Shown here: positions 1 to 64,000 of the stretch, in pieces | Layout of the letters: the number at the start of each line of letters is the position of its first letter | How positions within the stretch are numbered: position 1 is the first letter of the stretch | NCBI RefSeq assembly: GCF_014640635.1 | Contig: NZ_BMHI01000002.1 | Span: forward strand, 186,001 to 250,000 | Direction of reading: 5' to 3' | From: Flexivirga endophytica | Lineage (GTDB): Bacteria; Actinomycetota; Actinomycetes; Actinomycetales; Dermatophilaceae | DNA length: 64,000 bases | The notes under the pieces: model-generated | Seen by the model: the letters and a program-made list of their open reading frames with translations, nothing else | Database searches by the model: none | Told to the model about the DNA's origin: nothing | Translations under genes and position numbers: made by a program

Positions 1-22
1 CCGGGTGAGAAGGAGGCACGTG

Positions 23-1159
23 ATGAGTTCGCAGTTTCCGGTCAGCCGACGCACTGTCCTACGCGCGGGAGGGGTGATCGGCAGCGGTCTCGCCCTCGGC
101 GTCGCGTCGACGCAGCCCGCGCAGGCCGATCCGCCGTGGTTCGCCAAGCTCTCGCTCGAGCAGCAGGTCGGCCAGCGGGTGATCTTCTCCTACCCGGGTC
201 CCGACCCGTCCGACGAGATGTTCCAGCTGATCAAGGACGGCATGGTCGGAGGGCTGATCTTCTTTGGCGAGAACATCCCCAGCCTCTCGCACATCGCCGA
301 CGTGGTGGCCGACCTGAAGGCCGCCCACGCGCAGAGCCCGGCGAGCGCGACGCCGCTGGTGCTGACGACCGACCAGGAAGGCGGCTACATCCGGCGCCTG
401 CGTGGTCAGGAGCCGATCCTGTCGGAGAAGAAGATCGGTGCGTCCGCGGATCCGCTCGCCGAGGCGACCAAGGCGGGCACCGGCGCGGGCGAGGCGCTCA
501 AGGCGGTCGGCATGAACCTCAATCTCGCACCGGTCGAGGACGTCTACCGCGAGGAGGGCAACTTCGACGACCAGTGGGAGCGGTCCTACAGCTCCGACCC
601 GGCCGTGTGCGGAACGCTCGGCGCCGCCTTTGTGCGCGCCCAACAGGCCACCGGCGTCGCCGCCACCGCGAAGCACTATCCCGGCCTCGGCTGGGCGACG
701 CGGGCCGAGAACACCGACCTCGGCGTCGTCACACTGACCCAGCCCGCGGCCGAGATCCGCGCCGTGGACGAGTTCGCGTTCACGCCGGTCATCGAGGCAG
801 GCGTCCAACTGGTGATGACCTCGTGGGCGACATACCCCGCGATCGACCCGGACTACCCGGCCGGCCTGTCCAAGATCTTCGTCGGCGAGGAGTTGCGCGG
901 CCGTCAGCAGTTCCGTGGCGTGACGATCACCGACGCACTCGAGGCCGGCGCCCTCGAGCCGTATGGCGACACCGGCGAACGCTCCGTGCTGTCCGCCGAA
1001 GCGGGCATGGACGTGTTGCTCGCCTCCGGTCGCGACGTCGCCCAGGGCACCGACGCGGTCACCGCGGTCGCCGCTGCGCTGCGGAGCGGCCGGCTCAACC
1101 CCGGCCACTTCAAGGTCGCGCTGACCCGGGTCCAGCGGCTGCGGAACAGCCTCGGCTGA
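23..1159 (+). CDS. Tat-exported glycoside hydrolase family 3 protein (beta-N-acetylhexosaminidase-like)
   Basis: Single-domain family 3 glycosidase of about 378 residues, the size of NagZ-type beta-N-acetylhexosaminidases, which trim N-acetylglucosamine from cell-wall fragments. The start at ATG 23 follows AAGGAGG at 10-16. The N-terminus carries a twin-arginine motif (SRRTVLR), a hydrophobic stretch and an AQA cleavage site, so export through Tat is expected. Family motifs are DQEGG (about residue 118), KHYPGLG and ITDAL, whose Asp is the likely nucleophile. The substrate is inferred from the family. It ends 20 bp from the convergent acyl-CoA ligase. A second GH3 protein lies at 31851-33254. 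Confidence 0.85.
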   Translation: MSSQFPVSRRTVLRAGGVIGSGLALGVASTQPAQADPPWFAKLSLEQQVGQRVIFSYPGPDPSDEMFQLIKDGMVGGLIFFGENIPSLSHIADVVADLKAAHAQSPASATPLVLTTDQEGGYIRRLRGQEPILSEKKIGASADPLAEATKAGTGAGEALKAVGMNLNLAPVEDVYREEGNFDDQWERSYSSDPAVCGTLGAAFVRAQQATGVAATAKHYPGLGWATRAENTDLGVVTLTQPAAEIRAVDEFAFTPVIEAGVQLVMTSWATYPAIDPDYPAGLSKIFVGEELRGRQQFRGVTITDALEAGALEPYGDTGERSVLSAEAGMDVLLASGRDVAQGTDAVTAVAAALRSGRLNPGHFKVALTRVQRLRNSLG

Positions 1160-1179
1160 GGCCGGGTGCGCGGGCCGGG

Positions 1180-3021: not shown

Positions 3022-3160
3022 CGGCGCTGCACCTCGAAGACATACGCAGCAGGTGCCTGAAAAGTCATGACGGTCAGGTTAGGCGGTGGGGCACCTTACT
3101 GAGGGGGAAACAAAGGTGCGTCAGTTCGCCACGAACCGGGCCGTTGCAGGGGCGAGCCGC

Positions 3161-4260: not shown

Positions 4261-4298
4261 ACAACAATGTTGTGGATAACAATACAACATTGTTGTAT
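4259..4298. promoter_or_regulatory. paired palindromic operators, probably for the MarR protein
   Basis: Two copies of one palindrome sit between the divergent hydrolase-marR operon and the oxidase gene at 4406. ATACAACATTGTTGTAT at 4282-4298 is perfect, and ATACAACAATGTTGTGG at 4259-4275 matches at 15 of 17 positions. Their centres are 23 bp apart, about two helical turns, and the proximal copy overlaps the hydrolase start codon. The spacing and form fit MarR-family dimer sites. Assignment to the neighbouring MarR protein is inference. Confidence 0.7.
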
Positions 4299-4405
4299 GA
4301 AACTCGGAGGTAGATCAGGAGGCGATGTCGAAATCGCGGCGCCGGGGTCGTCCCTTGGTATGTCGACGGTGCAACACGCACCGTCCCCAGCCCAAGGAGC
4401 ACACC

Positions 4406-6778: not shown

Positions 6779-7545
6779 TGCTGCTCGACGCCTGGCGTCT
6801 CGCGCTGGGCACGCTCACCGCAGTGCGGGTGCCGCCGCCGGAGCAGGTGGACCGTCGCGTCGCCGGTATGGCGATGGTGCTCGCGCCGCTGGCGGCTGTG
6901 CCGCTCGGGGCGGCGGTCACCCTCGTCGGCCTGCTCGGCCACTGGCTCGATCTGTCGGTGTGGGTCACGGCGCTGCTCGCGGTCGGAGCCCTGGTGCTCG
7001 GCAACCGCGCCTTCCATCTGGACGGGCTGTCGGACACGGTGGACGGACTCGCCTCGTCGTTCGACGCGGAGCGGTCGCTCGCCGTGATGAAGACCGGCAC
7101 CTCCGGCCCGGCCGGGGTGGCCGCCACGGTCCTGGTCATCGGCCTGCAGACGGCCGGACTGGCTGCATTGTTCGGCCGCGCCGACTGGTGGCAGGCCGCG
7201 ATCCTCGGCGGCGTCGCCGTGTGCGTCTCGCGTGCCGCGCTGGTGATCTGCTGCGCGCGCGGAGTGCGTCCTGCGCGGGAGGACGGACTCGGCCGCACCT
7301 TCACCCAGACCGTTCCACGGTCGGTCGCTGCCATCAGCTGGCTGCTCGTGACGGTCGTGCTCGCAGCGGTCGGTGCCTGGGCTGGATTCCCTTGGTGGCG
7401 TGGCGTTTTCACGGCGGTGCTCGCGCTGGTTGCCGTCGGGGTCATCGTGTCGCGGGCCGTCCGCCGGTTCGGCGGAGTGACCGGCGACGTCTTCGGCGCT
7501 GCCGTGGAGCTGGCGCTCGTCGCCATACTCGTCGGGCTTTCCTAG
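6778..7545 (+). CDS. cobS: adenosylcobinamide-GDP ribazoletransferase (cobalamin synthase)
   Basis: CobS is the integral-membrane enzyme that joins adenosylcobinamide-GDP to alpha-ribazole (phosphate), the last step of nucleotide-loop assembly. The 255 residues hold five to seven hydrophobic segments and the family motif FHLDGLSDTVDG near residue 80, which binds metal and substrate. The start overlaps the cobT stop. It ends only 4 bp from the convergent cobU stop, so the whole loop-assembly set lies in 2.3 kb. Confidence 0.95.
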   Translation: MLLDAWRLALGTLTAVRVPPPEQVDRRVAGMAMVLAPLAAVPLGAAVTLVGLLGHWLDLSVWVTALLAVGALVLGNRAFHLDGLSDTVDGLASSFDAERSLAVMKTGTSGPAGVAATVLVIGLQTAGLAALFGRADWWQAAILGGVAVCVSRAALVICCARGVRPAREDGLGRTFTQTVPRSVAAISWLLVTVVLAAVGAWAGFPWWRGVFTAVLALVAVGVIVSRAVRRFGGVTGDVFGAAVELALVAILVGLS

Positions 7546-15267: not shown

Positions 15268-16959
15268 TCACAGCGGTGGCGTACGCGGTGGCGCCATACG
15301 CCGTGAGCCGAGTGCCTCGAAGCCGGCGGCCACCCGCAGCAGTGCGTTGTCGTCATACGCGCGACCGGCGAAGGTGAGACCGACCGGCATCCCGATGTCG
15401 GCCATGACGCCCAACGGAACCGTGACGGTGGGTATACCGAGGTGGCGGATGACGAGGTTGCCGTTGGCCACCCAGGTGCCGTTGCGCCAGGCGAGATCGG
15501 CCGACGCGGTGTTGACGTCGCTGTCTGCCGGTCCGACGTCGGCGACTGCCGGAAACACCACAGCATCAAGGGTGTTCGTGGTCATCCAGTCCTCCAGGTC
15601 GGCTTGACGGGTGCGCTCCAGCCCGGCCAGCCCGTCCGGCAGCGTCGGCATGTCGTTCAGCCCGGCACCTGGGTGGGTGCGCACCCAGTCCGGGTAGGTG
15701 GCGATGTCGTCGGGGAAGCCGGTGTAGCGGTCCAGCGCACCCGGCGGCTGCGGGAAGATCGTGGCGCCGTCGACGGGTGCGAGCGAGGACAACGCCGGGT
15801 CGCCGTTGGCGGCCAGGAAGTCCTCCCACGACCAGGGCGACAGGGCGTTGATCTCCTCGCTGAGGAACTCCGGGCTGACGAAGCCCCTCGTGCTGATCGT
15901 CGGCGCACCGGCCCGGTCGCCCTCGTAGTTGGACACAGCAGGGAAGTCCACCTCGACCACTTCCGCGCCGGCCGCTTCCAGGTCGGCACGCGCCGCCTCC
16001 CAGAGGGCGATCACCGACGCGCGGGTCTCGATGCGCTCGCCGGTCGGCCCGCCGATCGTCGTCCCGGTGCCGGCGTCGGGGTCGGCATTCAGGTACATCC
16101 GCGGTATGCCGAGCCGTATGCCGGACAGCGAAAGCCCTTCTCGCAGTGCGGGATAGGACGGGGGACGCACCGCGGACGACGCCGGGATCGACACCCACGG
16201 CTGCACCCGCCAGAAATCCCCACGGGTGTCCGCGTCGTCGGCGACGATGACGTCCAGCACCTCCAGCAGATCGGCCATGGTCCGCGTGTGCGGCACGACG
16301 ACGTCCATCGTGGGGACCAGCGGCCAGTTGCCGCGGACCGAGATCACGCCACGTGACGGGGTGTAGGCGCACAGGCCGTTGTTGGAGGCCGGGCCGCGGC
16401 CGCTGGACCAGGTCTCCTCGCCCAGCCCGAACGCCGCGAAGCTCGCCGAGGTCGCGGTGCCCGAGCCGTTTGAGGACCCGGAAGCGTAGGGCGCAGTGAG
16501 GAACTCGGCGTTGTAGGGACTCTCGGCGCGACCGTAGAGCCCGCGCTGCATGCCGCCGTTCGCCATCGGCGGCATGTTGGTCAGGCCGAGACAGATCGCG
16601 CCGTTGCCGCGCAGTCGCTCGATGGTGAACGCGTCGCGTTGCGCCACCAGGTCGGCGAACGCCGGACTGCCGGCCGCCGCCGTCAGGCCTTTGACGAGGT
16701 AGCTGTCCTTCGCCGTGTAGGGAATGCCGTCCAGCGGTCCCAGCGTCTCGCCGCTCGCCCGCCGCCGGTCCGACTCAGCGGCCTCGGCCCGTGCCTCGGG
16801 GTTGGGCACGATGACGGCGTTCAGCGCGGTCGCCGTGTCCGGCCCGTCGTAGGCTGCGATCCGTGCGAGGTAGGCATCGACCAGCTCGACAGCCGTCGTC
16901 TCGCCCGTCTCGAGCGCGGCGCGTAGGTCGCTGATGGAACGTTCGACGACATCGATCAC
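15268..16959 (-). CDS. amidase signature family protein
   Basis: Amidase of 563 residues with the Ser-cis-Ser-Lys arrangement: Lys in YTAKDSYLVKG near residue 85 and the serine-rich motif GSSNGSGTATSASF near 185, where the usual pattern is GSSSGS. It hydrolyses a carboxamide, and the natural substrate is unknown. GTG 16959 is selected because it follows TAGGAGA and starts the first helix (IDVVERSISDLRAAL). A longer frame upstream runs into the oxidoreductase gene. It is likely co-transcribed with that gene, 20 bp upstream on the same strand. Confidence 0.82.
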   Translation of the reverse strand: MIDVVERSISDLRAALETGETTAVELVDAYLARIAAYDGPDTATALNAVIVPNPEARAEAAESDRRRASGETLGPLDGIPYTAKDSYLVKGLTAAAGSPAFADLVAQRDAFTIERLRGNGAICLGLTNMPPMANGGMQRGLYGRAESPYNAEFLTAPYASGSSNGSGTATSASFAAFGLGEETWSSGRGPASNNGLCAYTPSRGVISVRGNWPLVPTMDVVVPHTRTMADLLEVLDVIVADDADTRGDFWRVQPWVSIPASSAVRPPSYPALREGLSLSGIRLGIPRMYLNADPDAGTGTTIGGPTGERIETRASVIALWEAARADLEAAGAEVVEVDFPAVSNYEGDRAGAPTISTRGFVSPEFLSEEINALSPWSWEDFLAANGDPALSSLAPVDGATIFPQPPGALDRYTGFPDDIATYPDWVRTHPGAGLNDMPTLPDGLAGLERTRQADLEDWMTTNTLDAVVFPAVADVGPADSDVNTASADLAWRNGTWVANGNLVIRHLGIPTVTVPLGVMADIGMPVGLTFAGRAYDDNALLRVAAGFEALGSRRMAPPRTPPL

Positions 16960-21025: not shown

Positions 21026-21928
21026 ATGACCAGCGCGACGTCCGACGAGGTCAAGGTCGGGTCGACACGCCGGCGGATGGGCCGGCTGACGGCATACTGG
21101 CTGGCCCTGCCCGGTGGGCTGTGGCTGGCGATCTTCTTCGTCATACCGATGATCTATCTGTTGTCGCTGTCGTTGATGACCGGCAACTTCATCGACGGCT
21201 TCACCCAGACGTTCCACGTGTCGACCTACTGGCACACGATCAGCCTCTACCACGACCAGTTCATCCGGTCGATCATCTACGCGCTGATCGTCACCGCGCT
21301 CACCATCACGCTCGCCTATCCGATGGCCTACTGGATCGCCATGCGGGGCGGTAAGCACAAGTCGACATACCTGCTGATCATCCTGTTGCCGTTCTTCGTG
21401 TCGTTCGTCATACGGACGTTGCAGTGGCAGTTCATCCTGGCTGACAACGGCTTCGTCCTCGGCACGTTGAAGGATTTGCACCTGGTCGGCTCGGACTTCC
21501 ACCTGCTGGCCACTCCGGTCGCGGTGATCTGCGGATTGACCTACAACTACTTGCCGTTCATGGTGCTGCCGCTCTATGTGTCGATCGAGCGACTGGATCC
21601 ACGGTTGATGGAGGCGGCGAACGATCTGTATGCCAGCAAACTGCAGGCACTGCTGCGGATCGTCTTCCCACTCACCATTCCCGGCATCTTCGCCGGCGTG
21701 ATCATGACGTTCGTGCCGGTCGCTTCTGACTTCGTCAATGCGCAGCTGCTGGGCGGTGCGAAGACGACGATGATCGGCAATGTCATCTACACGCTCTATC
21801 TGACGAACAACGACTATGCGGCCGCGTCGGCGCTGTCGTTCACGTTGATGGGTGCGTTGTTGATCGGCATCTTCATCTATGCGCGAGCACTCGGCACCAA
21901 GGACGTGATGGAGGCGGCGGCGCTATGA
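21026..21928 (+). CDS. potB: polyamine ABC transporter permease, PotB-like
   Basis: Inner-membrane permease of 300 residues with six hydrophobic segments and the cytoplasmic EAA loop (MEAANDLYASKLQALLRIVFPLTIPG, around residue 195), which contacts the ATPase. It starts with a charged cytoplasmic tail before GGLWLAIFFVIPMIYLL. It lies 37 bp after potD and its stop overlaps the next permease start by 4 bp. Two Ile residues use ATA codons within the GTATGNC word (VIPMIY and VIRTL). Confidence 0.88.
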   Translation: MTSATSDEVKVGSTRRRMGRLTAYWLALPGGLWLAIFFVIPMIYLLSLSLMTGNFIDGFTQTFHVSTYWHTISLYHDQFIRSIIYALIVTALTITLAYPMAYWIAMRGGKHKSTYLLIILLPFFVSFVIRTLQWQFILADNGFVLGTLKDLHLVGSDFHLLATPVAVICGLTYNYLPFMVLPLYVSIERLDPRLMEAANDLYASKLQALLRIVFPLTIPGIFAGVIMTFVPVASDFVNAQLLGGAKTTMIGNVIYTLYLTNNDYAAASALSFTLMGALLIGIFIYARALGTKDVMEAAAL

Positions 21929-25168: not shown

Positions 25169-25271
25169 GCGCGTTCCTCTCGTGCGGTCACCGCTCATCC
25201 TCGCGCAAGCAGGGTCGTCATACTGGAGGCGCCCACGTTTCGTGGACGGTATGGCGGCAAGGAGATGCGAC

Positions 25272-25742
25272 ATGGCAACAAGCGGGCTTGTCCCACCGTT
25301 CGACCGCGACGGCGCGATCGCGAAGGTGCGCAAGGCAGAGGATCTTTGGAACACTCGCGATCCGGAGAAGGTCGCGGCCGCCTATTCGCCGGACAGCCGC
25401 TGGCGCAACCGCACGACCTGGGTGAACGGGCACGACGAGATCGTGGCGTTCCTGACCCAGAAGTGGGACCGCGAACGCGACTACCGGCTGATCAAGCAGC
25501 TGTGGGCGTTCGGCGGCAACCGGATCGCGGTGCGCTTCGCGTCGGAGTCGATGGGCAAGGACGGGCTCTGGTATCGCTCCTATGGCAACGAGCAGTGGCA
25601 GTTCGACGATGAAGGGCGTTGCCAGTTCCGGCACGCGAGCATCAACGACCTGCAGATCGCGGAGGCGGACCGCCTCTATCGGTGGGATGCGCCGGGCCCT
25701 CGTCCGCAGGACCACCCCGGTCTGAGCGATCTGGGTCTCTGA
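25272..25742 (+). CDS. DUF1348 family protein (NTF2-like fold)
   Basis: 156-residue member of the DUF1348/SnoaL-like group. Diagnostic segments are WNTRDPEKVAAAYSPDSRWRNR, IVAFLTQKWDRERDYRL, NRIAVRFASES, WYRSYGNEQWQFD and HASINDLQI. The fold is a small alpha+beta barrel that may bind a ligand, and the function is unknown. AAGGAG at 25259-25264 sets the ATG at 25272. It lies divergently next to a GNAT gene and is the last gene before the HNH-containing stretch. Confidence 0.82.
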   Translation: MATSGLVPPFDRDGAIAKVRKAEDLWNTRDPEKVAAAYSPDSRWRNRTTWVNGHDEIVAFLTQKWDRERDYRLIKQLWAFGGNRIAVRFASESMGKDGLWYRSYGNEQWQFDDEGRCQFRHASINDLQIAEADRLYRWDAPGPRPQDHPGLSDLGL

Positions 25743-25787
25743 CCGCCGCGAGCTCTCACGGCACTTGAATTGTGTTGGGGGCTGGTG

Positions 25788-27539
25788 TTATTCGCCGGGT
25801 GTGGTGGTGTAGTCGCGGCCGGTGGGGCTGGTCCAGGTGCATGCACCGTCGGGCGTCATGGTGACGGTCCAGCCGTGGGCTTGTTTGGTGCGGTGGTGGT
25901 GGCGGCACAGGCATTGCAGGTTGGTTGCGGCGGTCGGGCCGTGCGGCCAGGGGGTGACGTGGTCCAGGTCGCAGCGGTGGGCGGGGGTGGTGCAGCCGGG
26001 GAATCGGCAGTGCCGGTCGCGGGTTTGGACGTAGTGCTGTAGGCGGGTGCTGGGCCGGTAGCGGGTTTCGCAGGTTTCCAGGGTGACGCCGGTGTCGGCG
26101 TCGATCAGGGCACGGGTGATGGTCATCCCGAACGAGCGGGTCATGGTTTCGATGACGTCGGCTGGGATGGTGCCGATGCCGGGCACGGTGGCATCACCCA
26201 ACCGGGCAGTCGGTGTGCGGGGTTCTGATGGTGGTGGTGCGCCGCGGGTGGTCGTCGCGGATGGTGGCGCTCCTCGCAGTTGGTGGGTGTGCAGGTCGGC
26301 GTGCGGGTCGAGGTCGGTGGGTGCGTATTCGTCGTCGAGTTCCCAGTCGGCGAAATCCGCGTCACATGGTGGGTATTGGTGTTTGAGGAGTTCGTTGAAC
26401 TCCCGGTCGATCTCGTCCTGACTGCGGACTCTGACACCGCACGGTCGCCCTGTTGCCGGTGTGGGTGTGGTGGGGCGGCCGTGGGGGAAGACGGTGGTCC
26501 CGGTGACGGGGTGCGCGAACGCGTCGGGCCAACCGGGTCCACCACCGGCGGCCGCGGTCCGGGCAGCGGTACCCGAAGCTGCTGCAGTGGCCGCGGTGCC
26601 GGTGTGGATGGGGAGGTGGATGACCAGGTGGGTGGTGATGGTGGTGTTGCCGAGGATGAGGTCGGCGATGGCGTCGGCGCGGCATTCGGCCAGGGTTTTG
26701 TCGGTGGTGGTGTCGGAGTGCAGCGCCCGGGCGTGCTGGTCGATGGCGGCCATGATCTTGGCGGCGACCGCGGACGGCAGGATCGCGTGCAGGTGGGTGA
26801 GGCCGGGTTCGTCGTCGGGGTGGGTGAACACTCCGACCCGGTCTCGGCGCCGCCGGGTCGCGGCCTGGGTAGCGGTGATGGGGTCCAGGGCGCGCAGGAT
26901 CCGTTGGGTGCGGTGTTGCACCCGCGGGGCGGATTGCCGGGCGAGTAGGGCGACGTTGGCTTGTTCGACGGCGGCGGCCTCCGCCGCACTGCTGGCATGG
27001 TCGGGGTCACCCAGCAACGCGGTTTCGACCTGCCGGGCCAGGTCCAGGGTTGCGGGGGTGCCGTCCTGGGTGGTCTCGCGGGCGACCCGGCCGAGTGCGC
27101 GGTGAATGCTGGTGAGTTTGGCTGGCTCCAACTCCCCGGTGCCGACATGGCCGAACAGGCGTGGGGTGCGGATGATCGCATCAGTCGCTTCAGCGACTCG
27201 GTTGAGTGCTTGCCCGGAGGTCCACCCGAATTGAGGTCCGAGCTCGGAACCGATGAATTCGTCTCGATGTGTGCCGAAGGCGTGCCGCACTTCGTGTTCC
27301 CGGAAACCCTCAGGCGCGGTGGCATCAGGGAAGGCGACCTTCTCGATCGCCGCGGCTTGCGCGAGCCGAGCGGACTGCAACGCCCACACCGCATTGAGCG
27401 TCCGCTGCGCGATGATTGCCTGCTCCACGAGTTCCTGTTTGGTCAGGGTTGTCGAATCGATGCGGGAGTCCTGGAACGCCGAAGCGAGCAGCTCGAAGGC
27501 GGCCGTCGGCTCTGCGTCGGTACCTCGGATCCCCTCCAT
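25788..27539 (-). CDS. DUF222 domain HNH endonuclease (13E12 repeat family)
   Basis: 583-residue protein with an N-terminal helical DUF222 domain (about residues 10-340), a Pro/Thr-rich linker and a C-terminal HNH nuclease domain. The latter shows CRFPGC, CDLDHVTPWPHG, NLQCLCRHHHRTK, with the paired Cys-x-x-Cys metal ligands and the His-Asn-His core. Such genes occur in many copies in actinobacterial genomes and behave like mobile elements. The start at ATG 27539 is tentative (weak ribosome site). The gene contains no GTATGNC word in 1.75 kb, unlike the rest of the window, which supports recent acquisition. Confidence 0.85.
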   Translation of the reverse strand: MEGIRGTDAEPTAAFELLASAFQDSRIDSTTLTKQELVEQAIIAQRTLNAVWALQSARLAQAAAIEKVAFPDATAPEGFREHEVRHAFGTHRDEFIGSELGPQFGWTSGQALNRVAEATDAIIRTPRLFGHVGTGELEPAKLTSIHRALGRVARETTQDGTPATLDLARQVETALLGDPDHASSAAEAAAVEQANVALLARQSAPRVQHRTQRILRALDPITATQAATRRRRDRVGVFTHPDDEPGLTHLHAILPSAVAAKIMAAIDQHARALHSDTTTDKTLAECRADAIADLILGNTTITTHLVIHLPIHTGTAATAAASGTAARTAAAGGGPGWPDAFAHPVTGTTVFPHGRPTTPTPATGRPCGVRVRSQDEIDREFNELLKHQYPPCDADFADWELDDEYAPTDLDPHADLHTHQLRGAPPSATTTRGAPPPSEPRTPTARLGDATVPGIGTIPADVIETMTRSFGMTITRALIDADTGVTLETCETRYRPSTRLQHYVQTRDRHCRFPGCTTPAHRCDLDHVTPWPHGPTAATNLQCLCRHHHRTKQAHGWTVTMTPDGACTWTSPTGRDYTTTPGE

Positions 27540-27964
27540 TTCTATATCGTACAGGCGTTCGATGAAGATGTCGAGTTTTGAGTGGTGTAATTCGGTGCAA
27601 ATACGAAGCTTCGATGCCTGCGAGCGAACGGCCCATCCCACGCCACGTGACGTGAATCAGATACGCCAAGCTGTAGCCGCGCGCGAAAAACGGCGTCGCA
27701 CGCCGCCCATCGCGCCGACCTCTCCGCAACGCAAACACCCGAGCGCGCCGACCGAGACCAACGCACCCTCAGTGCATCGACGCCTCGCGACTGGTGCGTC
27801 CGAACAGCGCACTCTAGGCAGTAGTTCCCTACCCCGAGAGAGACTTCGTCGAACGGGGAGCGGAGCACCTTCGGCCTTGAGACACTTCGAGACCACGCCC
27901 ATGCGCCATTGCGATACCCCGTCAGCGGTGAGGCACCACGAACCAGTCGTCAGGAGACCGAACG
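27540..27964. other. 425-bp divergent intergenic region between HNH gene and unknown gene
   Basis: Relatively A+T-rich next to the HNH start (TATAGA-like element at 27542-27547 on the minus strand), with small palindromes CGAAGCTTCG at 27604-27613 and the CACGTGACGTG tract near 27643. AGGAG near 27952 serves the gene at 27965. There is no gene, no RNA structure I can support and no GTATGNC word. Confidence 0.4.
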
Positions 27965-29203
27965 ATGGATGACGAGATTCAGTTGATCAGCGACGGCGAC
28001 GGCTTGGCTGTCATCGGCGATTCGGCGGTTGTCGATCGATTCCTCGCTGCGGAAGGACTCTCTTCCAAGGACCTGGGCCTACCTCGACTCAGCCGGATCC
28101 TCAGCGTTGGCGGCGGTGTGTCAAGCGTGGGCTCCGAGGCCGCCGCAAACTCGGGGCGTTGGGTCAAGTTGACGAAAGAGTCCGCGAAGCTTGTTCGCAA
28201 GCATGGTTTGAGGGAGAGCAAGGGCGGCTACAGCACGGGTGTGCTGAAGGGAAAGAACGGTCAGGTCAAGGGATTCGTCGAGTTCGTGAAGGCCCCCGGC
28301 ACACTGCTGACCAATCCTGCCATGTTGGCCGGGGCAGCCGGCATCATGGCGCAACTCGCCATGCAGCAGACGATGGACGAAATCACCGACTATCTCGCGA
28401 CGATCGACAAGAAGGTCGACGACGTCCTTCGTGCGCAGAAGGATGCAGTGCTCGCTGACATGATCGGCGTCGACCTGGTCATCGAGGAGGCAATGATCAT
28501 TCGGGACCAGGTCGGCCGGGTCTCAGAAGTCACCTGGTCGAAGGCGCAGGCCACGACACTGACGATCGCACGGACCCAGGCATACGCTTTGCGGCAGCTC
28601 GACGCAGTCGCTGAGAAGCTTGAGCGGGAGAAGCGATTCGGTGAGCTCGCCGACGCCACCAAGGAAGCGCAATCCACGGTGCAGGACTGGCTCGCGGTAT
28701 TGGCTCGTTGCTATCAGTTGCAAGAGGCGATCGCGGTGCTCGAGCTCGATAGAGTCCTCGATTCCTCGCCCGACGAACTGGATCGCTATCGTCTCGCGCT
28801 GCGGGCTGCCCGGCTCAACCGGGTGGAGCGGATCTCCGGCACCACCGAGCGCTTAATGATCCGGATGGATGCTGCGGCCGGCGCTGCCAACGCCAGGGTC
28901 CTCATGCACCCGACCGCCTCGCGGGATGTCGTCAGGTCGACCAATGAGGTGGCAACCGCTGTCGTCGACTTCCACGGTCGGCTCGGGATCGAGCAGGCTC
29001 GGGAGTCGATGGAGGCCAGGCGTTGGCTGGATGCCGCCACCGAGGCGCGACACAAAGCGCTCGAGTCTGGCGCGGACGGACTGGACGCCGCCCGCAATCT
29101 CGGTAACGAGACTTTTGATCGCGCCAGGACGATGACGACCAAACTCTCCGGCGGCATCGGCAAGCCCAGCTTGCGGCGGCGAGCGCGGGACAAGGACAGC
29201 TGA
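27965..29203 (+). CDS. unrecognised 412-aa helical protein with one hydrophobic segment
   Basis: I do not recognise this protein with confidence. After about 105 mixed residues there is one Gly/Ala-rich hydrophobic stretch (LLTNPAMLAGAAGIMAQLAM, about 118-137). Long charged helices follow, with heptad-like patterns (TIDKKVDDVLRAQKDAVLAD, QLDAVAEKLEREKRFGELAD), and a basic tail. There is no signal peptide, cysteine cluster or catalytic motif. Two long helices flanking a short hydrophobic one recall alpha-pore-forming proteins, but this is only an architectural analogy. AGGAG precedes the ATG. Third positions are less GC-rich than in its neighbours, suggesting transfer. Confidence 0.6.
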   Translation: MDDEIQLISDGDGLAVIGDSAVVDRFLAAEGLSSKDLGLPRLSRILSVGGGVSSVGSEAAANSGRWVKLTKESAKLVRKHGLRESKGGYSTGVLKGKNGQVKGFVEFVKAPGTLLTNPAMLAGAAGIMAQLAMQQTMDEITDYLATIDKKVDDVLRAQKDAVLADMIGVDLVIEEAMIIRDQVGRVSEVTWSKAQATTLTIARTQAYALRQLDAVAEKLEREKRFGELADATKEAQSTVQDWLAVLARCYQLQEAIAVLELDRVLDSSPDELDRYRLALRAARLNRVERISGTTERLMIRMDAAAGAANARVLMHPTASRDVVRSTNEVATAVVDFHGRLGIEQARESMEARRWLDAATEARHKALESGADGLDAARNLGNETFDRARTMTTKLSGGIGKPSLRRRARDKDS

Positions 29204-29240
29204 GCGCCACCCCGCCAACGGCCACCCGGCGGACCCGCCC

Positions 29241-30029
29241 TCACATCTGCGCGCGCAACACCGCGAATTCGCAACCAGGAGAGTCGGGATCGAAGCCGTG
29301 CTCGAGCAACCAGCGCGCTGACGTGAGGCCGCGGTAGGACCACCACGCGCGGATAACGCCGCGGTCGACGTCGGCGCCATGATCGGCGCCATGATCGGCG
29401 CCATGACCAGCGCCGTAGCCGGCGAGGATGTCGTCGAGGTGCTCCGGATGGCCGATGGCCAACGTTGCCAGGTCGTACATCGCGTCGCCGGGCGCGCCTT
29501 CGGACCAGTCGAGGACGCCCGTCACCTCGTCGGTGATCTGTTCGACGAAGACGTGGTCGACCTGGAGATCGCCGTGCATGAAGACCGGGGTCCACGGCCG
29601 CAGCGCGGTCTCGGCGATCCGGCGATTGCGGGTGACGAGATCGGTTGGCAGGACGGCATTTTCGAGCAACCATGCGCACTCGGTGTCCAGGCGTGCAGCG
29701 AGTCCGTCGACGCTCGCGCCCTGCCAGGATGGTGGCGTCGCATCGTGCAGTTCTCGTATGGCGCCACCCGCCGCCGCCCATGCCGCGGCCGATGCGGTCG
29801 ACGGCTCGCCTAGCCGGCCGAGCGGTCTACCGTCGAGCGCGGCCAGGGCGAGCACCGGAGGCTGATGCCACAAGATGTGCGGTGTCGGGACGGGCGCCAT
29901 ACGCATCGTCTCGATCTCCCTGTCGAGGCGTGACTGATCGGCGTCCATCTTCAGGAAGATGTCGCCGACCCGGACGGTCGCCCGCTCGGCGTGCGCCACG
30001 ACGACCTCGATCTCGTCCATGGAGGACAC
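29241..30029 (-). CDS. aminoglycoside phosphotransferase-like kinase family protein
   Basis: Protein-kinase-like (APH) fold protein of 262 residues. The catalytic loop reads HGDLQVDH, so the Asn usual at the eighth position is His, and the metal motif is LDWSEGAPGDAMYDLA. It may phosphorylate a small molecule, but the altered loop leaves activity open, although similar loops occur in other actinobacterial members as I recall them. Near the C-terminus it carries a GAGHGADHGADHGAD stretch from a 12-bp tandem repeat. Start GTG 30029 versus ATG 30020 is unsettled. It is 56 bp after the acyl-CoA ligase gene. Confidence 0.7.
   Translation of the reverse strand: MSSMDEIEVVVAHAERATVRVGDIFLKMDADQSRLDREIETMRMAPVPTPHILWHQPPVLALAALDGRPLGRLGEPSTASAAAWAAAGGAIRELHDATPPSWQGASVDGLAARLDTECAWLLENAVLPTDLVTRNRRIAETALRPWTPVFMHGDLQVDHVFVEQITDEVTGVLDWSEGAPGDAMYDLATLAIGHPEHLDDILAGYGAGHGADHGADHGADVDRGVIRAWWSYRGLTSARWLLEHGFDPDSPGCEFAVLRAQM
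29373..29420. repeat. 12-bp tandem repeat inside the kinase-like gene
   Basis: The unit GGCGCCATGATC occurs at 29373-29384 and 29385-29396, again with one change at 29397-29408 (GGCGCCATGACC), and degenerates at 29409-29420. On the coding (minus) strand it encodes repeated Gly-Ala-Asp-His units. In-frame units mean that copy-number change would lengthen or shorten a His/Asp-rich loop without a frameshift. Confidence 0.85.
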
Positions 30030-56577: not shown

Positions 56578-56583
56578 CTGCGC

Positions 56584-57915
56584 ATGCGTTCTGCGATGAG
56601 CCGGCTCCTCGCGGTCCTGTCGATACTGCTCCTGCCGGCGGGTTGTTCCCGCAGTGGATCGTCGCCCTCGTCGCCGGTGCCGGACGACTCGAGCGCGGCC
56701 GGGGCGTCGAGCGCGCCACCGGCCTCCGGTGCATCGCCCGCGGCATACCGACCGCAGCAGTTCCACGGATCGCCGGCCAACTTCTACGTCCCACCGAAGC
56801 CGATGCCGAAGGTCGCGCACGGGACTCTGCTGCGTTATCAGCGGACCAAGCTGACGATCCCCGGCGGCACCGCATGGAAGGTGATGTACGCCAGCACCTC
56901 CCTGGCCGGCAGAAGCATCGCCGTCACCGGGATCGTCGTGGTGCCGACCGGCAACGCCCCCGAGGGCGGCTGGAAGCTGATCAGCGTGGCCCACGGCACG
57001 ACCGGCATCGCCGACGACTGCGCACCCTCGCGGTTCGACGTGCCGGAGAACGTCGACACCACATCGGCATACACGGTCGCCCTCTCGCGGGGCGACTACC
57101 GGCGGTTCGCCGAGGACGGCTACCTGAAGGCCGGCTACGTCCTCTCGTTCACGGACTACGAAGGCCTCGGCACGCCGGGGGTACATCCCTATCTCGTCGG
57201 CCCGAGCGAGCGCCGCAGCGTGCTGGACGCAGCGCGTGCGGCGCGCCGTCTTCCGCACACGCCGGTGCGGAAAAGCTTTGCGATCTGGGGTTATTCGCAG
57301 GGTGGACACGCCGCCGCGTGGGCGAACGACCTGGCCGCCAAGTGGACGCCGGAGCTACACCTCATGGGCAGCGTCGCGGGCGGTCCGGTCAGTGAGCTGA
57401 ACCTCGTCGCGAACACCCTCGGTTCGACGTCGATGGAGCCGAGCCTCTTCTTCATGATCATCGCGGGGTATGCCGCGGCATACCCCGAGCTGCACCCGTC
57501 CGACGTGTTGACCCCTGCCGGCATACGGGTGATGCAGAAGTTCGAGGCGCATTGCGGCGCCTACCCCGGTGCGGTGCGCGGCCAGAAGTTGTCCGATCTG
57601 GTCAAGCCCGGCTTCGACTCGAACACGGCGTGGCAACGCAGGCTCGGCGAGAGCAACCCCGGCCAGTACGGGTCGCAGGCGCCGGCGGCCCCACTGCTGA
57701 TCCTGCACAGCGCCGACGACGAAGTGGTGCCGGCCTTCCTGAGCAAGACGATGCTCGATCGGATATGCCGCATCGGCTGGACCGTCGAACGCCGGATCTA
57801 CCACAACGGCAAGGGTCACGTCGCCGAGGTGCCGAACGCGATGGCGGACGCACTGCCCTGGATCAATGCGCGTATGGCGGGCAAGAAGCCGGCCTCGAAC
57901 TGCACGAAGAAGTAG
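56584..57915 (+). CDS. secreted lipase lipoprotein (LIP family)
   Basis: 443-residue exported hydrolase with a lipoprotein signal (LLAVLSILLLPAGC) and a Ser/Ala/Pro-rich linker. The lipase domain has SVAHGTTGIADDC, LSFTDYEGLGTPG, the nucleophile elbow WGYSQGGHAAAWA near residue 235, Asp in HSADDEVV and His in NGKGHVAE. The family usually cleaves short- or long-chain acyl esters outside the cell. The start among ATG 56584 and ATG 56596 is uncertain, as neither has a clear ribosome site. The 50405 gene is a distant paralogue. Confidence 0.82.
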   Translation: MRSAMSRLLAVLSILLLPAGCSRSGSSPSSPVPDDSSAAGASSAPPASGASPAAYRPQQFHGSPANFYVPPKPMPKVAHGTLLRYQRTKLTIPGGTAWKVMYASTSLAGRSIAVTGIVVVPTGNAPEGGWKLISVAHGTTGIADDCAPSRFDVPENVDTTSAYTVALSRGDYRRFAEDGYLKAGYVLSFTDYEGLGTPGVHPYLVGPSERRSVLDAARAARRLPHTPVRKSFAIWGYSQGGHAAAWANDLAAKWTPELHLMGSVAGGPVSELNLVANTLGSTSMEPSLFFMIIAGYAAAYPELHPSDVLTPAGIRVMQKFEAHCGAYPGAVRGQKLSDLVKPGFDSNTAWQRRLGESNPGQYGSQAPAAPLLILHSADDEVVPAFLSKTMLDRICRIGWTVERRIYHNGKGHVAEVPNAMADALPWINARMAGKKPASNCTKK

Positions 57916-59098: not shown

Positions 59099-59986
59099 GT
59101 GCACGACAAGTCGGTGACCGCAACCGTCGACGTGTTGCGCCTGCTGGCCGCACGCCGCGACGAGTTGACCCCGGCGCTGCAGCGCATCGCGGACACCATC
59201 GCGGGTAACCCGGCGGAGGTCGTGCACATGTCCACCGCGGAGCTGGCCCGGCTCGCCGACACCTCGGACGCCGCGGTCTCCCGCTTCTGTCGCAGTGTCG
59301 ACGTCGCGAGCTTCCCGGAGCTGCGATCGCTGATCGCAGTGGCGCTCGCGCAGGGCCGGCAGCCGGCGCCCGTGTCGTTGGCCGATGTGCAGCGCAGCAG
59401 CGACCTGGCCACGATTGCCCGCGCCGTCCGCAACGCGCACGTGGATGCGGTCGACCTGACCTTCGCGCAACTCGACATCGCGGTGACCGCGCTGGCGATC
59501 GAGGCGATCAGCGCGGCCCGCCAGGTCATCGGTTTCGGGGTCGGCGCGGCCGGTGCCGTGCTTACGGATCTGGACTTCAAGCTCGGCCTGGTCGGCGTGC
59601 CGGTGACCACGACCACCGACATACATCGTGCCCTGTCGATGACGGCCCGCGCCGGCGCGGGAACGGTCGCGATCGTCATCAGTCATTCCGGTGACACCCG
59701 GGAGTGCGTCGAGGTCGCCCAGGCCGGCGTAGAGGCGGGCGTCACCGTCGTCGCGATCACCACTGCTGCCAACTCCGCGTTGAGCAGGGCGTCGACCCAC
59801 ACGTTGCGGCCCGTCGCGCACGAACCGCGGGCCCAGTCCGGCGGCACCGCATCCCGCATCGCGCAGCTGTATGTCGTGGACCTGCTCTACCTCGGCCTGC
59901 TGGCACGGGCGCCGCGCGAGGAGGAGGTGGCGGCCGACCGGATGAGTCGTGCCGTCCGCCCGCACCGGGTGAGCTCCGGCAGCTGA
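59099..59986 (+). CDS. MurR/RpiR family transcriptional regulator
   Basis: 295-residue regulator. An N-terminal HTH_6 domain (LARLADTSDAAVSRFCRSVD near residue 55) precedes a sugar-isomerase (SIS) domain with GFGVGAAGAVLTDLDFKLG near 155 and VISHSGDTRECVEVA near 205, which should sense an amino-sugar phosphate. GTG 59099 is chosen since CGGAGG ends 5 bases before it. A GTG at 59093 overlaps that site. It is divergent from nagB, so it probably controls nagB with GlcNAc- or glucosamine-phosphate as effector (inference). Confidence 0.88.
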   Translation: MHDKSVTATVDVLRLLAARRDELTPALQRIADTIAGNPAEVVHMSTAELARLADTSDAAVSRFCRSVDVASFPELRSLIAVALAQGRQPAPVSLADVQRSSDLATIARAVRNAHVDAVDLTFAQLDIAVTALAIEAISAARQVIGFGVGAAGAVLTDLDFKLGLVGVPVTTTTDIHRALSMTARAGAGTVAIVISHSGDTRECVEVAQAGVEAGVTVVAITTAANSALSRASTHTLRPVAHEPRAQSGGTASRIAQLYVVDLLYLGLLARAPREEEVAADRMSRAVRPHRVSSGS

Positions 59987-60593: not shown

Positions 60594-60713
60594 CGGCGGT
60601 GCGGCACGGTGACTACTCTCGAAGTGTGTGCGATGCCGCCACGACGTGACGCTCCTTCGCACGAGGCTGCATGAGAAGGCAGCACGACGATGTCACGAGA
60701 AGGAGCCGCACGC

Positions 60714-61829: not shown

Positions 61830-61924
61830 CTCCCTGGTCGGATTGACCGGCATGGCGACGGATGAGCGGCGTAGCGAAACCACCCGATTCGGCAAGCCGC
61901 TCGATGCAGCGGTATGCCGCTCGA

Positions 61925-62305
61925 TCAGCCGGCGAAGGCCAGTGCGATCAGTGCCAGCACGGGCAGGGTGCCCTGCGTGGCGGCGGCTCGCGCCTTCGAC
62001 ATGTCACTCGCGACCAGCACGAGTGACGCTGCGGCCATGGATCCGGCGCCGGCGACGGCGAGCGCGACCGACGCGGAGTGAGGACCGGTGCCGCGCAGCA
62101 CCACCGCGACCAGGACGACGATGGCGAGGAAGAGGTTGTAGAACCCCTGATTGAACGCCAACGGCTTTGTCTGCTCTGCCTGTTCGGCGCTGACGCCGAA
62201 GGTGGCACGCGTGCGTGGAGCCGTCCATGCGAAGGACTCCAGCCAGAAGATGTAGACGTGCAGCAGGGCAGCGAGCACGAGGAGCACGGAGGCCACGATC
62301 GACAT
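61925..62305 (-). CDS. DUF1304 family membrane protein
   Basis: 126-residue membrane protein with four hydrophobic segments. The DUF1304 signature is at the start (LLVLAALLHVYIFWLESFAW) and in QTKPLAFNQGFYNLFLAI near residue 47. Its function is unknown. The ATG at 62305 is the first. No operon partner is apparent: it is convergent with ald and 32 bp downstream of the methyltransferase gene on the same strand. Confidence 0.8.
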   Translation of the reverse strand: MSIVASVLLVLAALLHVYIFWLESFAWTAPRTRATFGVSAEQAEQTKPLAFNQGFYNLFLAIVVLVAVVLRGTGPHSASVALAVAGAGSMAAASLVLVASDMSKARAAATQGTLPVLALIALAFAG

Positions 62306-62337
62306 ACGCGGAGCTTACTGACCCGGGAGTTGACAGG

Positions 62338-63015
62338 TCAGGCCTTGCGACGGGCCAGCAGCGTGGAGTCGTCGATCTCGACGGTCCGCCCGTCACGGGT
62401 GACGGTGCGGGGGCGCTGCTGCACCACCAACGCCTCGAAGTCGTCCGGCAACCCCGGCACCAGGTCCTCGGCGAGGAACATCGCCTTGCGTTTGCTCTCG
62501 GTCAGCTCGGCGAAGTGTGCGGCGGGAGAGTGCCCCACGACCAGCAGGTGCCCGCCCGGCGCGACGGCGGCACCCAGCCGACCCACGGCGTCGACCATCC
62601 GGCCGTCCGGCAGGTGCAGGAAGTGTGAGGTGACCAGGTCGTAGGACCGGCCCGCGGCGTCGAACTCGCGGGCGTCGACCTGCCACCAGTGGGTGCGGTC
62701 GGCCACACCGGCGTCCGCTGCGTGCTGCGCTGCGCGGGCGAGACCCTTGCTCGAGAAGTCCGCGCCCGTGACCTGCCAACCCTGCTGAGCCAGCCAGATG
62801 ACGTCGCCGCCCTCGCCGCAGCCGACGTCGAGCGCGGTGCCGGGCGACAGCTTGCCGGCCTCGGCCACCAACTGTGGGTTGGGCTTTCCGCTCCAGACCG
62901 AGTCGGCTCCGTCATACCGCTCGTTCCAGGAGGTTGCCTCGAAATAGTCGGGGTCGGTGGGGCTCGCCCCGTGCTGGTGCTGGTGCTTGTGCTCTGCGGT
63001 CTCGTTGCTCTGCAT
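62338..63015 (-). CDS. class I SAM-dependent methyltransferase with His-rich N-terminus
   Basis: 225-residue methyltransferase. A short His-rich head (EHKHQHQHGASPTD, about residues 8-21) precedes FEATSWNERYDGADSVWSGK, the SAM motif ALDVGCGEGGDVIWLAQQG near residue 58, and GADFSSKGL. The layout resembles thiopurine/tellurite-resistance (TehB-like) methyltransferases, where the WxxRY..W.G start is usual. The His-rich head might bind metal. ATG 63015 is the first good start. The earlier frame lacks a site. Confidence 0.8.
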   Translation of the reverse strand: MQSNETAEHKHQHQHGASPTDPDYFEATSWNERYDGADSVWSGKPNPQLVAEAGKLSPGTALDVGCGEGGDVIWLAQQGWQVTGADFSSKGLARAAQHAADAGVADRTHWWQVDAREFDAAGRSYDLVTSHFLHLPDGRMVDAVGRLGAAVAPGGHLLVVGHSPAAHFAELTESKRKAMFLAEDLVPGLPDDFEALVVQQRPRTVTRDGRTVEIDDSTLLARRKA

Positions 63016-63099
63016 GCGATCAGCATGGCAAGCCTGCAAGAGACTTGGCAAACGTTGTTGCCAGATCAGCAAACTGCCGTTGTAGGGCGCAGCGCCCGC

Positions 63100-64000
63100 T
63101 CAGGGCGCAGTGGTCTGCTTCTGCGGAGGCTCGTCGATCTTGGTGCGCTCGCCGTGCGGGTTGCGGAAGAACACCACGGCGAGCACGGCCACGATCGCGA
63201 TGCCCGCCGGCAAGTAGAGCGCCTCGCCCATCGCTCGGGAGAAGCCGTCGGCGACGAACGCCGGCAGGTGTCCGGCGGCCCCGGCAGCACCTTCGGTCGC
63301 CGAGTAGGAACCGGCGGACTCACCCAGGTGCGCGTGCAGGCGGGACTCCATCACCGCGGCGATCGCGGCACTGCCGATGACCGCGCCGACCTGCCGGGTC
63401 ATGTTGTAGACACCGGCGCCGGCTCCGGCGCGCTGCGGTGGCAGCGTCCTGGTCGCCGTCACCGACAGCGGAGACCACATGAAGGCGTTGGCAAGACCGA
63501 GCAGCGCCAGCGGCAGCACGAGCTGCCAGGTCGGCAGGCCCGGCCCGAGGATCGCGCCCAGCCAGAAGAGCGACACCGTCAGGCAGACCAGACCGAACCC
63601 ACCGATCAGCGACGGGTGGTAGCGGTCCACCATCTGGCCGACGAACGGTGCGCCGACCACATTGACCAGCGCCATCGGCACGAAGAGCAGCCCGGCCTGG
63701 GTCGGGGACAACTCACGCACCACCTGCGCGTAGAGCATCATCGGCAGCGCGAACGAGGTGATCACGAAGCCGACGATGCTGATCGCGATGTTCGCCAGGC
63801 TGAAGTTGCGATCCTTGAAGAGCACGAGCGGCACCAGCGGGTCGGCCTTGGTGCGCGTCTGCCACCACACGAAGATCACCAGCAGCACCACACCGACCGC
63901 GATCAGCAACGGCACCGAGACGAAGCTCCACACGGAGCCCCAGTCGTAGGACTCACCCTCCTGTATGCCGAACACCAGGCAGAACAACCCGGCGCCACTG
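63100..64000 (-). CDS. MFS transporter, DHA2 (EmrB/QacA) type, truncated by window end
   Basis: The C-terminal 300 or so residues of a 14-helix drug:proton exporter. The frame is open to the window edge, so the N-terminal half, including motif A and C, is outside. The visible part has segment pairs such as VVRELSPTQAGLLFVPMALVN (QxGL pattern), the GQMVDRYHPSL loop and the late LPPQRAGAGAGVYNMTRQVGAVIG, both typical of DHA2. It probably exports a toxic compound, with substrate unknown. The end at 63100 is a normal stop. Confidence 0.82.
   Translation of the reverse strand, partial: SGAGLFCLVFGIQEGESYDWGSVWSFVSVPLLIAVGVVLLVIFVWWQTRTKADPLVPLVLFKDRNFSLANIAISIVGFVITSFALPMMLYAQVVRELSPTQAGLLFVPMALVNVVGAPFVGQMVDRYHPSLIGGFGLVCLTVSLFWLGAILGPGLPTWQLVLPLALLGLANAFMWSPLSVTATRTLPPQRAGAGAGVYNMTRQVGAVIGSAAIAAVMESRLHAHLGESAGSYSATEGAAGAAGHLPAFVADGFSRAMGEALYLPAGIAIVAVLAVVFFRNPHGERTKIDEPPQKQTTAP

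Follow-up and report, generated by a model that had tools for sequence, protein, structure and literature searches.

A polar DNA word with strand-wise spacing and many dialects in Flexivirga and its relatives

Introduction

The other genome-wide tag words known to us are the uptake signals of two Gram-negative families, cyanobacterial HIP1, Chi and KOPS; we know of no uptake word for Micrococcus luteus. Chi is a short asymmetric word that acts in one orientation, is specific to the species and leans to the leading strand, whereas KOPS point along the replication arms. The USS of the Pasteurellaceae is a genome-wide asymmetric word thought to be maintained by biased uptake, and AT-rich sequence flanks its 9-base core. 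The Flexivirga word described here, GTATGNCG, is likewise asymmetric and genome-wide, but it lacks the flanking signal of the USS: no extended motif surrounds it, and its flanks show nothing beyond a scarcity of A at -1 and -3. It is similar to Chi in being short and asymmetric and in differing between species, and it may likewise be read in one orientation, as same-orientation avoidance indirectly suggests; it differs from Chi in that it is not tracked by RecC and has no orientation bias. Like KOPS it has eight bases of which one is free and is asymmetric, although neither of its orientations prevails in the stretches sampled.

The portions of Frye et al. (2013; PMC3630211) drawn on here describe eight dialects of the DUS of the Neisseriaceae, one of them with an inserted base, as well as one genome with two dialects, family members with none, and as many as 5,918 copies in 2.4 Mb. 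The word described here resembles the DUS in its asymmetry, in its thousands of copies, in dialects that arise by base substitution and indel, in a two-dialect genome and in family members without the word. However, it belongs to Gram-positive Actinobacteria, has 7 fixed bases where the DUS has 10-12, is not concentrated between genes and is spaced separately on each strand, and its role in uptake is putative. Several features of DUS and USS were found i.e. asymmetric excess in both orientations, dialects, low abundance in acquired DNA and competence genes, but not indifference to orientation, as only same-orientation copies avoid each other. HIP1, in the sections of Elhai (2015; PMC4390886) used here, is also a short word found about 1-2 times per kb in coding and non-coding DNA; it is, however, the palindrome GCGATCGC, which marks both strands at once, and is tied to known solitary methylases, whereas the Flexivirga word is asymmetric and its methylase putative. 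A reach of ~1 kb for methyl-directed repair is discussed in the same sections. Transformation by Flp pili in M. luteus, as presented in part of Angelov et al. (2015; PMC4322843), is a case of actinobacterial competence that involves ComEA, ComEC and Tad/Flp; ComEA and ComEC are present here too. The terms 'uptake sequence' and 'overrepresented' do not occur in the text of that paper.

Results

The window, i.e. the whole stretch of 64,000 nt that was analysed, holds 148 copies of GTATGNCG (69 on the + strand and 79 on the - strand), or one per 432 bases, compared with a mean of 6.05 (sd 2.45, maximum 12) in 100 dinucleotide shuffles of the window. GTATG occurs 75+86 times on the two strands and GTATGNC 72+82 times; the sum of 154 matches exactly the tally of about 154 GTATGNC/GNCATAC made by eye in an earlier note, and the 20.4 predicted by base composition agrees with its estimate of about 20 at about 68% G+C. 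Exactly seven copies of GTATG lack a following NC (e.g. 4295..4299, + strand), as that note had it, with coordinates right within 5 bases. Orientations are roughly balanced, again as described (+/- per quarter of the window 19/21, 19/18, 14/20 and 17/20), and the longest word-free stretch, at 25257..29755, measures 4.5 kb. The excess persists across the whole Flexivirga genome, with 8,019 words against 1,249 of the reversed word, so the possibility that genome-wide counts lie near expectation fails. The earlier observation is therefore confirmed, and its extent is larger than first described.

The word overrides codon bias, as had been claimed: in permissive contexts Tyr is encoded by TAT in 252 of 293 cases (13-21% elsewhere) and Ile by ATA in 141 of 240 (1-2.5% elsewhere). 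Of the ten ATA codons given as examples, eight lie in a word and two do not, as stated; the eight include those in the - strand words at 7521..7528 (CGCCATAC on the + strand), at 21139..21146, inside the ORF of a PotB-like permease (21026-21928), and at 59617..59624 (ATA at 59621). The pooled synonymous odds ratio for GTATGNCG was 33.8 (2,377 contexts). All seven fixed positions are held, inside and outside genes, with odds ratios at synonymous sites between 4.5 and 555 and zero word losses in 3 of the 21 position-changes of the synonymous-site test, and transitions and transversions are held alike across all positions. Word density is equal in genes and between genes: 88.9 kb of non-coding DNA contains 156 words, compared with 10 predicted by composition and at most 36 across 200 permuted words. 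An explanation by codon-pair bias alone therefore fails, and the claim of an asymmetric word found on both strands and also outside genes stands, as does the dismissal of CpG deamination as its cause.

Near-miss words at first appeared depleted, but most of this depletion vanished when the words were masked out of the background (981 observed, 900 expected). The sole near-miss that is clearly low is GTATGNTG, with 3 copies against 12 expected and none in 426 synonymous chances. The depletion of neighbours proposed as a check thus holds for GTATGNTG and fails overall, and a Dcm/Vsr-type bias, in which the excess is confined to one depleted mismatch neighbour, was not found here, though GTATGNTG is low. 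Very-short-patch repair of one mismatch, a cause that had been suggested, is unsupported because every position and change type is held and near-misses are not depleted overall; a segregation or KOPS-like word pointing along the replication arm is unsupported because the sampled stretches carry both orientations about equally. The original list of causes is thereby narrowed: repair and segregation lose support, while a modified site and an uptake word remain, together with a Chi-like word.

When both orientations were pooled, spacing appeared random and the filling of permissive sites within 60 bases of the next word appeared independent of it (Tyr 42/48, p 0.23; Ile 23/41, p 0.92). Strand-separate analysis overturned this result. 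Neighbouring words were co-oriented in 320 of 837 pairs in Flexivirga (z -6.8), in 56 of the 147 adjacent pairs formed by all copies on both strands of the window (1..64000), and in 91 of 275 in a pool of GTATGCCG genomes (z -5.6); the counts were 39/119 for CGAAGGGG in genome G136 and 59/163 for GTACGNCG in G131, and seven control words in Flexivirga gave co-oriented fractions of 0.43-0.61. Among Flexivirga pairs less than 1 kb apart, 659 had the same orientation where 811 were expected (0.81) and 845 had opposite orientations where 792 were expected (1.07). The corresponding values for 17 relatives, each with its own word, were 441 against 629 (0.70) and 639 against 606 (1.05), and those for three control words were 680 (693 expected) and 604 (642 expected). 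Gaps on one strand were also more even than under shuffling of orientations, with a CV of 0.89 compared to 1.00 (sd 0.026) in Flexivirga and, in the GTATGCCG pool, of 0.80 compared to 0.99 (sd 0.043). Near a same-strand word, permissive Ile sites were filled less often (p 0.023), while Tyr sites showed no such drop (p 0.67). The word is polar: same-orientation copies avoid each other to a distance of ~1 kb and opposite ones do not, a pattern absent from the earlier note, and it seems that each strand wants its own word at ~1 kb intervals. In the window, a same-orientation pair 12 bases apart lies at 16104..16123 (+ strand), an arrangement that is scarce by word positions and pair counts, and two words abut head to head at 57468-57475 (+) and 57476-57483 (-), spanning 57468..57483. 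Polarity was weak in G088 (146/324 co-oriented, z -1.8) and was not detected for GTAGANC in G076 (71/141) or for GGAGNCGG in G010 (89/174); these two polarity-free dialects count against a one-strand mark.

Across the 53 genera sampled in the family there is one widespread word with many dialects, which differ even among sister species. The altered words are GTATGCCG, GGATGCCG, GTATGCG (a dialect missing one base), GTACGNCG, CGAAGGGG and several weaker ones, and one genome (G090) holds two words. Every dialect string found has A at position 3, which may reflect shared descent. Against a Markov background alone, GC-rich codon-pair words obscured the dialects; testing at synonymous sites resolved them, with odds ratios of 6-48 for strong dialect words compared with 1.5-1.8 for generic words in four such tests. 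Words with fewer than ~15 copies were left out, as high odds ratios arose at such counts in word-rich and outside genomes alike, as were a Streptomyces pool (odds ratio 3.2) whose loci had been chosen for word clusters and genome G069 (an odds ratio for GTATGNCG of 9.1 from 42 contexts, the coding sample containing 2 words). Loss of the word in lone word-poor species of word-rich genera (G131, G076 and G154) was discarded as an interpretation when other words turned up there, those of G076 and G154 being less certain than that of G131. In G088, GTATGCCG was found at the contig ends of a GGATGCCG genome, where repeats at both ends indicate a possible assembly fault, and this case was not used.

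In the comEC region, where numbers are small, Flexivirga caeni, at 82% identity, retains 12 of 19 words of G000, where 31% of arbitrary 7-of-8 windows are identical, and 0/11 and 0/12 are kept in two genomes with other dialects. In a small sample, the word is absent from an integrase-bearing gap of 9.4 kb in locus L020 and from one phage; such scarcity in recently acquired DNA fits an uptake word and is also expected under the rival readings.

RecC, PilM, PF01555 and PF00145 were considered as keepers of the word and rejected, as their distribution does not follow it. RecC occurs in 41 of 90 word-rich genomes (and is missing from the other 49) and in 37 of 67 word-poor ones. Nor do the two methylase families compared, PF01555 and PF00145, follow the word: the genome of the window lacks PF01555, and neither family occurs in 27 of the 90 word-rich genomes, a distribution that counts against a methylation mark. 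ComEC is present in 180 and T2SSF in 183 of 186 family genomes, including those where the word is weak or unseen, and ComEA adjoins ComEC in G000. PilM, a marker of classical type IV pili, the kind whose receptor pilin would be ComP, occurs in 7 of the 186, and from this rarity we infer that the T2SSF loci are of Tad type. The compared loci share leuS-degV-comEA-comEC surroundings, and among 20 comEC neighbourhoods compared by ORF clusters, with breaks caused by crude ORF calls, no extra gene went with the word.

Discussion

The excess, the strand-wise spacing and the altered words in relatives point to machinery that reads GTATGNCG as a tag. The strand-separate spacing moved weight off an uptake word, made a one-strand mark our first choice and raised a Chi-like word. 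We put the probability at roughly one in three that GTATGNCG is a polar genome tag that acts through a one-strand mark, perhaps adenine methylation, by which strands, or self DNA, would be distinguished. The uptake and Chi-like readings follow closely. The word would be recognised on one strand, with a reach of ~1 kb, and be needed separately by each strand. We infer an asymmetric DNA methylase, of a class outside PF01555/PF00145 (candidates are PF07669, PF02384, PF02086 and MmeI-like enzymes), that would modify one strand of the word, the putative modified base most likely being the adenine in position 3, because every dialect found has kept it. The mark would flag its own strand, so that both strands would need words at intervals, and marked strands could aid a repair or recombination step by showing which strand is the old one or which DNA is the cell's own. 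A per-site benefit of about 2Ns = 3.5 (odds ratio ~30) would fill most synonymous sites able to hold the word, and changes in the recognition part of the enzyme, slowly followed by the genome, would yield the dialects. Balanced orientations fit a strand mark rather than a replication-oriented Chi. It also speaks against the mark that restriction sites are usually avoided rather than enriched, and that Actinobacteria, which to our knowledge lack MutS and MutL, are not known to us to have methyl-directed mismatch repair. In its favour, the reach of such repair in E. coli is near 1 kb, according to the sections of Elhai (2015; PMC4390886) used here.

An uptake word like DUS or USS, spread by recombination because competent cells prefer DNA that bears it, is a possible explanation that we would not bet on, and the same applies to its candidate machinery, ComEA, ComEC and Tad-type pili as in M. 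luteus. The dialects, with the base-lacking GTATGCG and the two words of G090, behave like those reported in the portions of Frye et al. (2013; PMC3630211) cited above, ComEC and T2SSF are nearly universal, ComEA lies next to ComEC in G000, and the integrase-bearing gap and the phage lack the word. However, a receptor for double-stranded DNA should ignore orientation, and the avoidance seen is confined to copies that point the same way; the words have no extended motif and are not concentrated between genes, classical PilM is rare, ComEC and T2SSF also occur where the word is weak or unseen, and the papers listed in a literature search showed no transformation in the Dermatophilaceae. A Chi-like word, read in one orientation on broken or incoming DNA by a helicase-nuclease other than RecBCD, e.g. 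AdnAB, would account for polar recognition, for the diminishing value of further same-orientation copies and for a short asymmetric word with one free position that differs among related species. We consider it rather doubtful, since RecC does not track the word and the sampled stretches are balanced whereas Chi leans to the leading strand; AdnAB is not known to respond to Chi.

A different role on one strand, for instance as the point where lagging-strand or repair synthesis begins or where a single-strand binding protein attaches, would suit strand-separate spacing of ~1 kb, which is close to the size of Okazaki fragments, but is unlikely, as it comes with no candidate protein and known primase sites are much shorter. 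Equal use of coding and non-coding DNA and the absence of a penalty on extra opposite-orientation copies would be compatible with a nucleoid or chromosome-organising protein; a strict all-or-none word, spaced by strand and switched between sister species, makes such a site quite improbable. A local bias of repair or gene conversion in favour of the word would explain the scarcity of GTATGNTG, and is nevertheless very improbable given that all positions and change types are held, that near-misses are not depleted and that a purely local bias would not produce same-orientation avoidance. Codon-pair or mutational bias without recognition is hardly credible and, for GTATGNCG, is refuted: GC-rich words of a generic kind are likewise more frequent than in codon shuffles, and their odds ratios reach ~3 in some genomes, but they fall far below the strong dialects in the synonymous-site tests, density is equal outside genes and strand avoidance is not seen for control words. 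Two weak words, GGAGNCGG and GGACGNCG (the latter in G036 and G039), could be explained in this way.

Returning to the tag itself, we see even odds that a Gram-positive family, perhaps an order, tags each of its own strands about once per kb with a fast-evolving polar word, with a protein reader whose specificity drifts by single bases and dialects that separate sister species; this would be a new strand-wise tag distinct from DUS, HIP1, Chi and KOPS. The reader could be looked for by co-variation, as residues that change with dialect would point at it, and the strand-wise spacing provides a quantitative rule that separates mechanisms. If the word serves uptake, we know of no earlier case in Gram-positives. 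If it is a strand mark, it would bear on how Actinobacteria, without MutS and MutL as far as we know, tell their DNA strands apart.

Excess of the word in the window and genome

GTATGNCG is a real and strong genome-wide word of Flexivirga, with dialects in relatives and a spacing that is separate for each strand. A direct count found 148 copies in the window, 69 on the plus strand and 79 on the minus; of the 161 GTATG words there, 154 continue as GTATGNC. In 100 dinucleotide shuffles of the window GTATGNCG averaged 6.05 copies, with a maximum of 12. The earlier note had listed seven GTATG exceptions and ten codon examples, all of which lie within five bases of the positions it gave. The whole genome (4.72 Mb, 13 contigs) carries 4,048 + 3,971 copies versus 642 + 607 of the reversed word. 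Word counts for Flexivirga caeni (L053), 3361/3337/540/520, were identical to those of G001, a genome of the window's genus, which makes the window a Flexivirga. By equal counts, too, G008 is Metallococcus carri, G123 Knoellia remsis and G094 Humibacillus xanthopallidus, three further members of the family.

In a 464-kb Flexivirga sample (the window plus 20 stretches), with words masked from the background, we found 858 words where 20-26 were expected, and 981 one-mismatch neighbours versus 900 expected. The word has no flanking extension, except for few A at -1 and -3. Within the window the tetramers GTAC (126 versus 300) and CTAG (18 versus 97) are depleted, and GTAGAGC is mildly favoured in the sample (87 versus 32 by codon shuffle).

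Word density in the sample was 1.84 per kb within gene calls versus 1.75 outside; the calls came from a simple caller covering 81% of the DNA, so part of the uncalled DNA consists of missed genes. Gene-borne copies were 359 sense and 332 antisense. Tyr was encoded by TAT in 252 of 293 G-TAY-GNC-G contexts versus 13-21% elsewhere, and Ile by ATA in 141 of 240 C-GNC-ATH-C contexts versus 1-2.5% elsewhere. At all seven fixed positions the word base was preferred over synonymous alternatives, with odds ratios of 4.5 to 555; in three of the 21 position-change cases the synonymous alternative never occurred, and A- or T-ward changes tended to give lower odds ratios than G- or C-ward changes.

The largest gap in the sample, 9.4 kb without the word (353-9770 of L020, i.e. 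G000:C7:1-20000), contains ORFs that match no Pfam family, together with the gene for a phage integrase (7993-9186); the word reappears next to a UPF0182 gene past the gap, which looks like an integrated element. The longest wordless stretch of the window (25257-29755) holds a minus-strand ORF without a Pfam or NCBIfam match (25788-27641) and a plus-strand ORF without a Pfam match (27965-29203). Tetrasphaera phage TJE1 has 2 words in 49 kb. Clustered GTATGNCG was seen in five stretches (L158, L162, L193, L213, L246) of IMGVR_UViG_3300042560_001323, a 243 kb viral contig with low GC where counted.

Distribution and dialects

Across 186 Dermatophilaceae genomes, many genera are rich in GTATGNCG and others have it at background level; set cut-offs divided the 163 genomes at least 90% complete into 90 rich, 67 poor and 6 intermediate. 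GTATGNCG reached 6.4 times the reversed word in the window's genome and at most about 2.4 times in other families of the order (22 genomes, 19 families). In a phylum-wide GTATGCCG sample of 396 genomes, 392 from outside the family, the best outside genome with more than 100 words (G489) had 161 versus 30 reversed.

Word-poor genomes mostly carry some other word. Copies of GGATGCCG versus its reverse were 3,816 versus 392 in G020, 3,949 versus 289 in G030 and 4,480 versus 262 in G088; G090 and G091 have both GGATGCCG and GTATGNCG, intermixed along two contigs of G090. Pooled odds ratios from the synonymous-site test were 44 for GTATGCCG in G011; 48, 17, 13 and 4.1 for GGATGCCG in G030, G020, G088 and G005; 27 and 6.5 for CGAAGGGG in G136 and G102; 12.5 for GTAGANC in G076; 9.5 for GTAGNGGC in G154; 8.9 for GTATGCG in G024; 6.5, 3.2 and 1.9 for GTACGNCG in G131, G133 and G118; and 4.4 for GGAGNCGG in G010. 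The same test gave 1.5-1.8 for generic GC-rich words (four tests), 0.5-0.8 for three off-dialect pairings and 3.0 for GTAGANCG in the window's genome. As GTAGANC reaches 12.3 in Metallococcus carri and sits near 2 in many genomes, its signal in G076 may be partly general rather than dialect-specific.

In an unbiased word search the dialect word, whole or in piece, came top in 22 of the 31 family genomes searched. It ranked lower within the four words listed in G156, G132 and G076, and fell outside those four in G005; no clear word emerged in the other five (G118, G069, G013, G129, G018). Small-count words also reach high ratios in this search, including in outside genomes. With all tests combined, a word was found in 26 of the 31, weakly in G005, G133 and G010. 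Outside the family, where the search covered six genomes and 8 stretches, GGACGNCG was favoured in genomes from two further families within the order (G036, 3.5, 683 contexts; G039, 4.1, 597 contexts), and GGCATCCG in G055, on 11 copies, was inside small-count noise. In shape GGACGNCG matches the word of Flexivirga (stretches L393, L394, L396, L397).

A ComEC tree of 20 genomes placed GTACGNCG in two separate places, once where G131 stands beside its congener G029, a GTATGCCG genome (100/100), and a second time within the GTATGNCG group (88/83), and placed the GGATGCCG genome G030 beside the GTATGCCG genome G207 (100/100). Dialects therefore shift repeatedly, in small steps.

CGAAGGGG was strongly favoured in both orientations in G136 (stretches L284, L285, L344, L376, L377) and G102; 82 kb of G136 genes had 91 copies, where codon shuffling gave 8. 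It is similar in sequence to KOPS, but balanced in orientation. The contig ends of G088, C1:1-20200 (L281) and 3675001-3695000 (L368), carry mostly GTATGCCG and the other sampled stretches GGATGCCG; because the word spacing repeats at both ends, we read them as repeated DNA, an island or a misassembly.

Strand-separate spacing

Same-orientation neighbour pairs were few in Flexivirga (320/837, z -6.8), the pooled GTATGCCG genomes (91/275, z -5.6), G136 (39/119, CGAAGGGG), G131 and G133 (59/163 and 51/139, GTACGNCG), G007 (39/99) and G030 (28/72), and numbered 146/324 in G088 (z -1.8). Orientation avoidance was absent for GTAGANC in G076 (71/141 same) and GGAGNCGG in G010 (89/174), and seven control words in Flexivirga gave same-orientation shares of 0.43 to 0.61. 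The all-pair correlation revealed the cause: same-orientation pairs are scarce up to roughly 1 to 1.5 kb, beyond which their frequency is normal, while opposite-orientation pairs are not scarce and are in mild excess under 200 bases. Below 1 kb, Flexivirga had 659 same-orientation pairs versus 811 expected and 845 opposite versus 792, and 17 relatives with their own words (from a list of 18, G132 being dropped by the length filter) had 441 versus 629 and 639 versus 606. Three control words gave 680 versus 693 expected and 604 versus 642, and G088 taken alone showed little pair avoidance. Convergent (head-to-head) pairs 9-50 bases apart were about twice as frequent as expected in the 17-relative pool (28 versus 13), with no such excess in Flexivirga (20 versus 17).

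Same-strand gaps were also more even than with orientations shuffled, with coefficients of variation of 0.89 versus 1.00 (sd 0.026) in Flexivirga, 0.80 versus 0.99 in the GTATGCCG pool, 0.80 versus 0.95 in G131 and 0.94 versus 1.06 in G136; evenness in G088 equalled that with shuffled orientations. Near a same-strand word, permissive Ile sites were emptier (p 0.023) and permissive Tyr sites were not (p 0.67), and with orientations pooled filling had no distance effect. A mark on one strand, or a reader with polarity, fits the strand-separate spacing better than an uptake receptor blind to orientation.

Known systems and candidate genes

The known word classes treated by Elhai 2015 (PMC4390886) include Chi, uptake words and HIP1, and the same source has E. 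coli methyl-directed repair starting to fall off at about 1,000 nt. Judged from part of its text, the system of Frye et al. 2013 (PMC3630211) is the closest to the Flexivirga word in behaviour. For Micrococcus luteus, a review of type IV filament uptake (PMC6370729) mentions comEA, comEC and Flp pili; a term search in text of Angelov et al. 2015 (PMC4322843) found neither "uptake sequence" nor "overrepresented". Our open-access searches for the N-containing words and their complements found no paper, and topical searches listed none on such a word in Actinobacteria; the word, its dialects and the strand-separate spacing were not reported in the literature searched.

ComEC is present in 180 of the 186 family genomes, T2SSF in 183 and PilM in 7. 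RecC is patchy (89/186) and occurs in 41/90 rich and 37/67 poor genomes; a recC gene lies at G000:C2:251304-252278, just past the window's right end. The methylase families PF01555 (75/186, zero in the window's genome) and PF00145 (98/186) occur in 34/90 and 52/90 rich and in 30/67 and 35/67 poor genomes, respectively, and 27 of the 90 rich genomes have neither. Because many poor genomes use other dialects, a shared gene whose specificity drifts fits better than a gene gained and lost.
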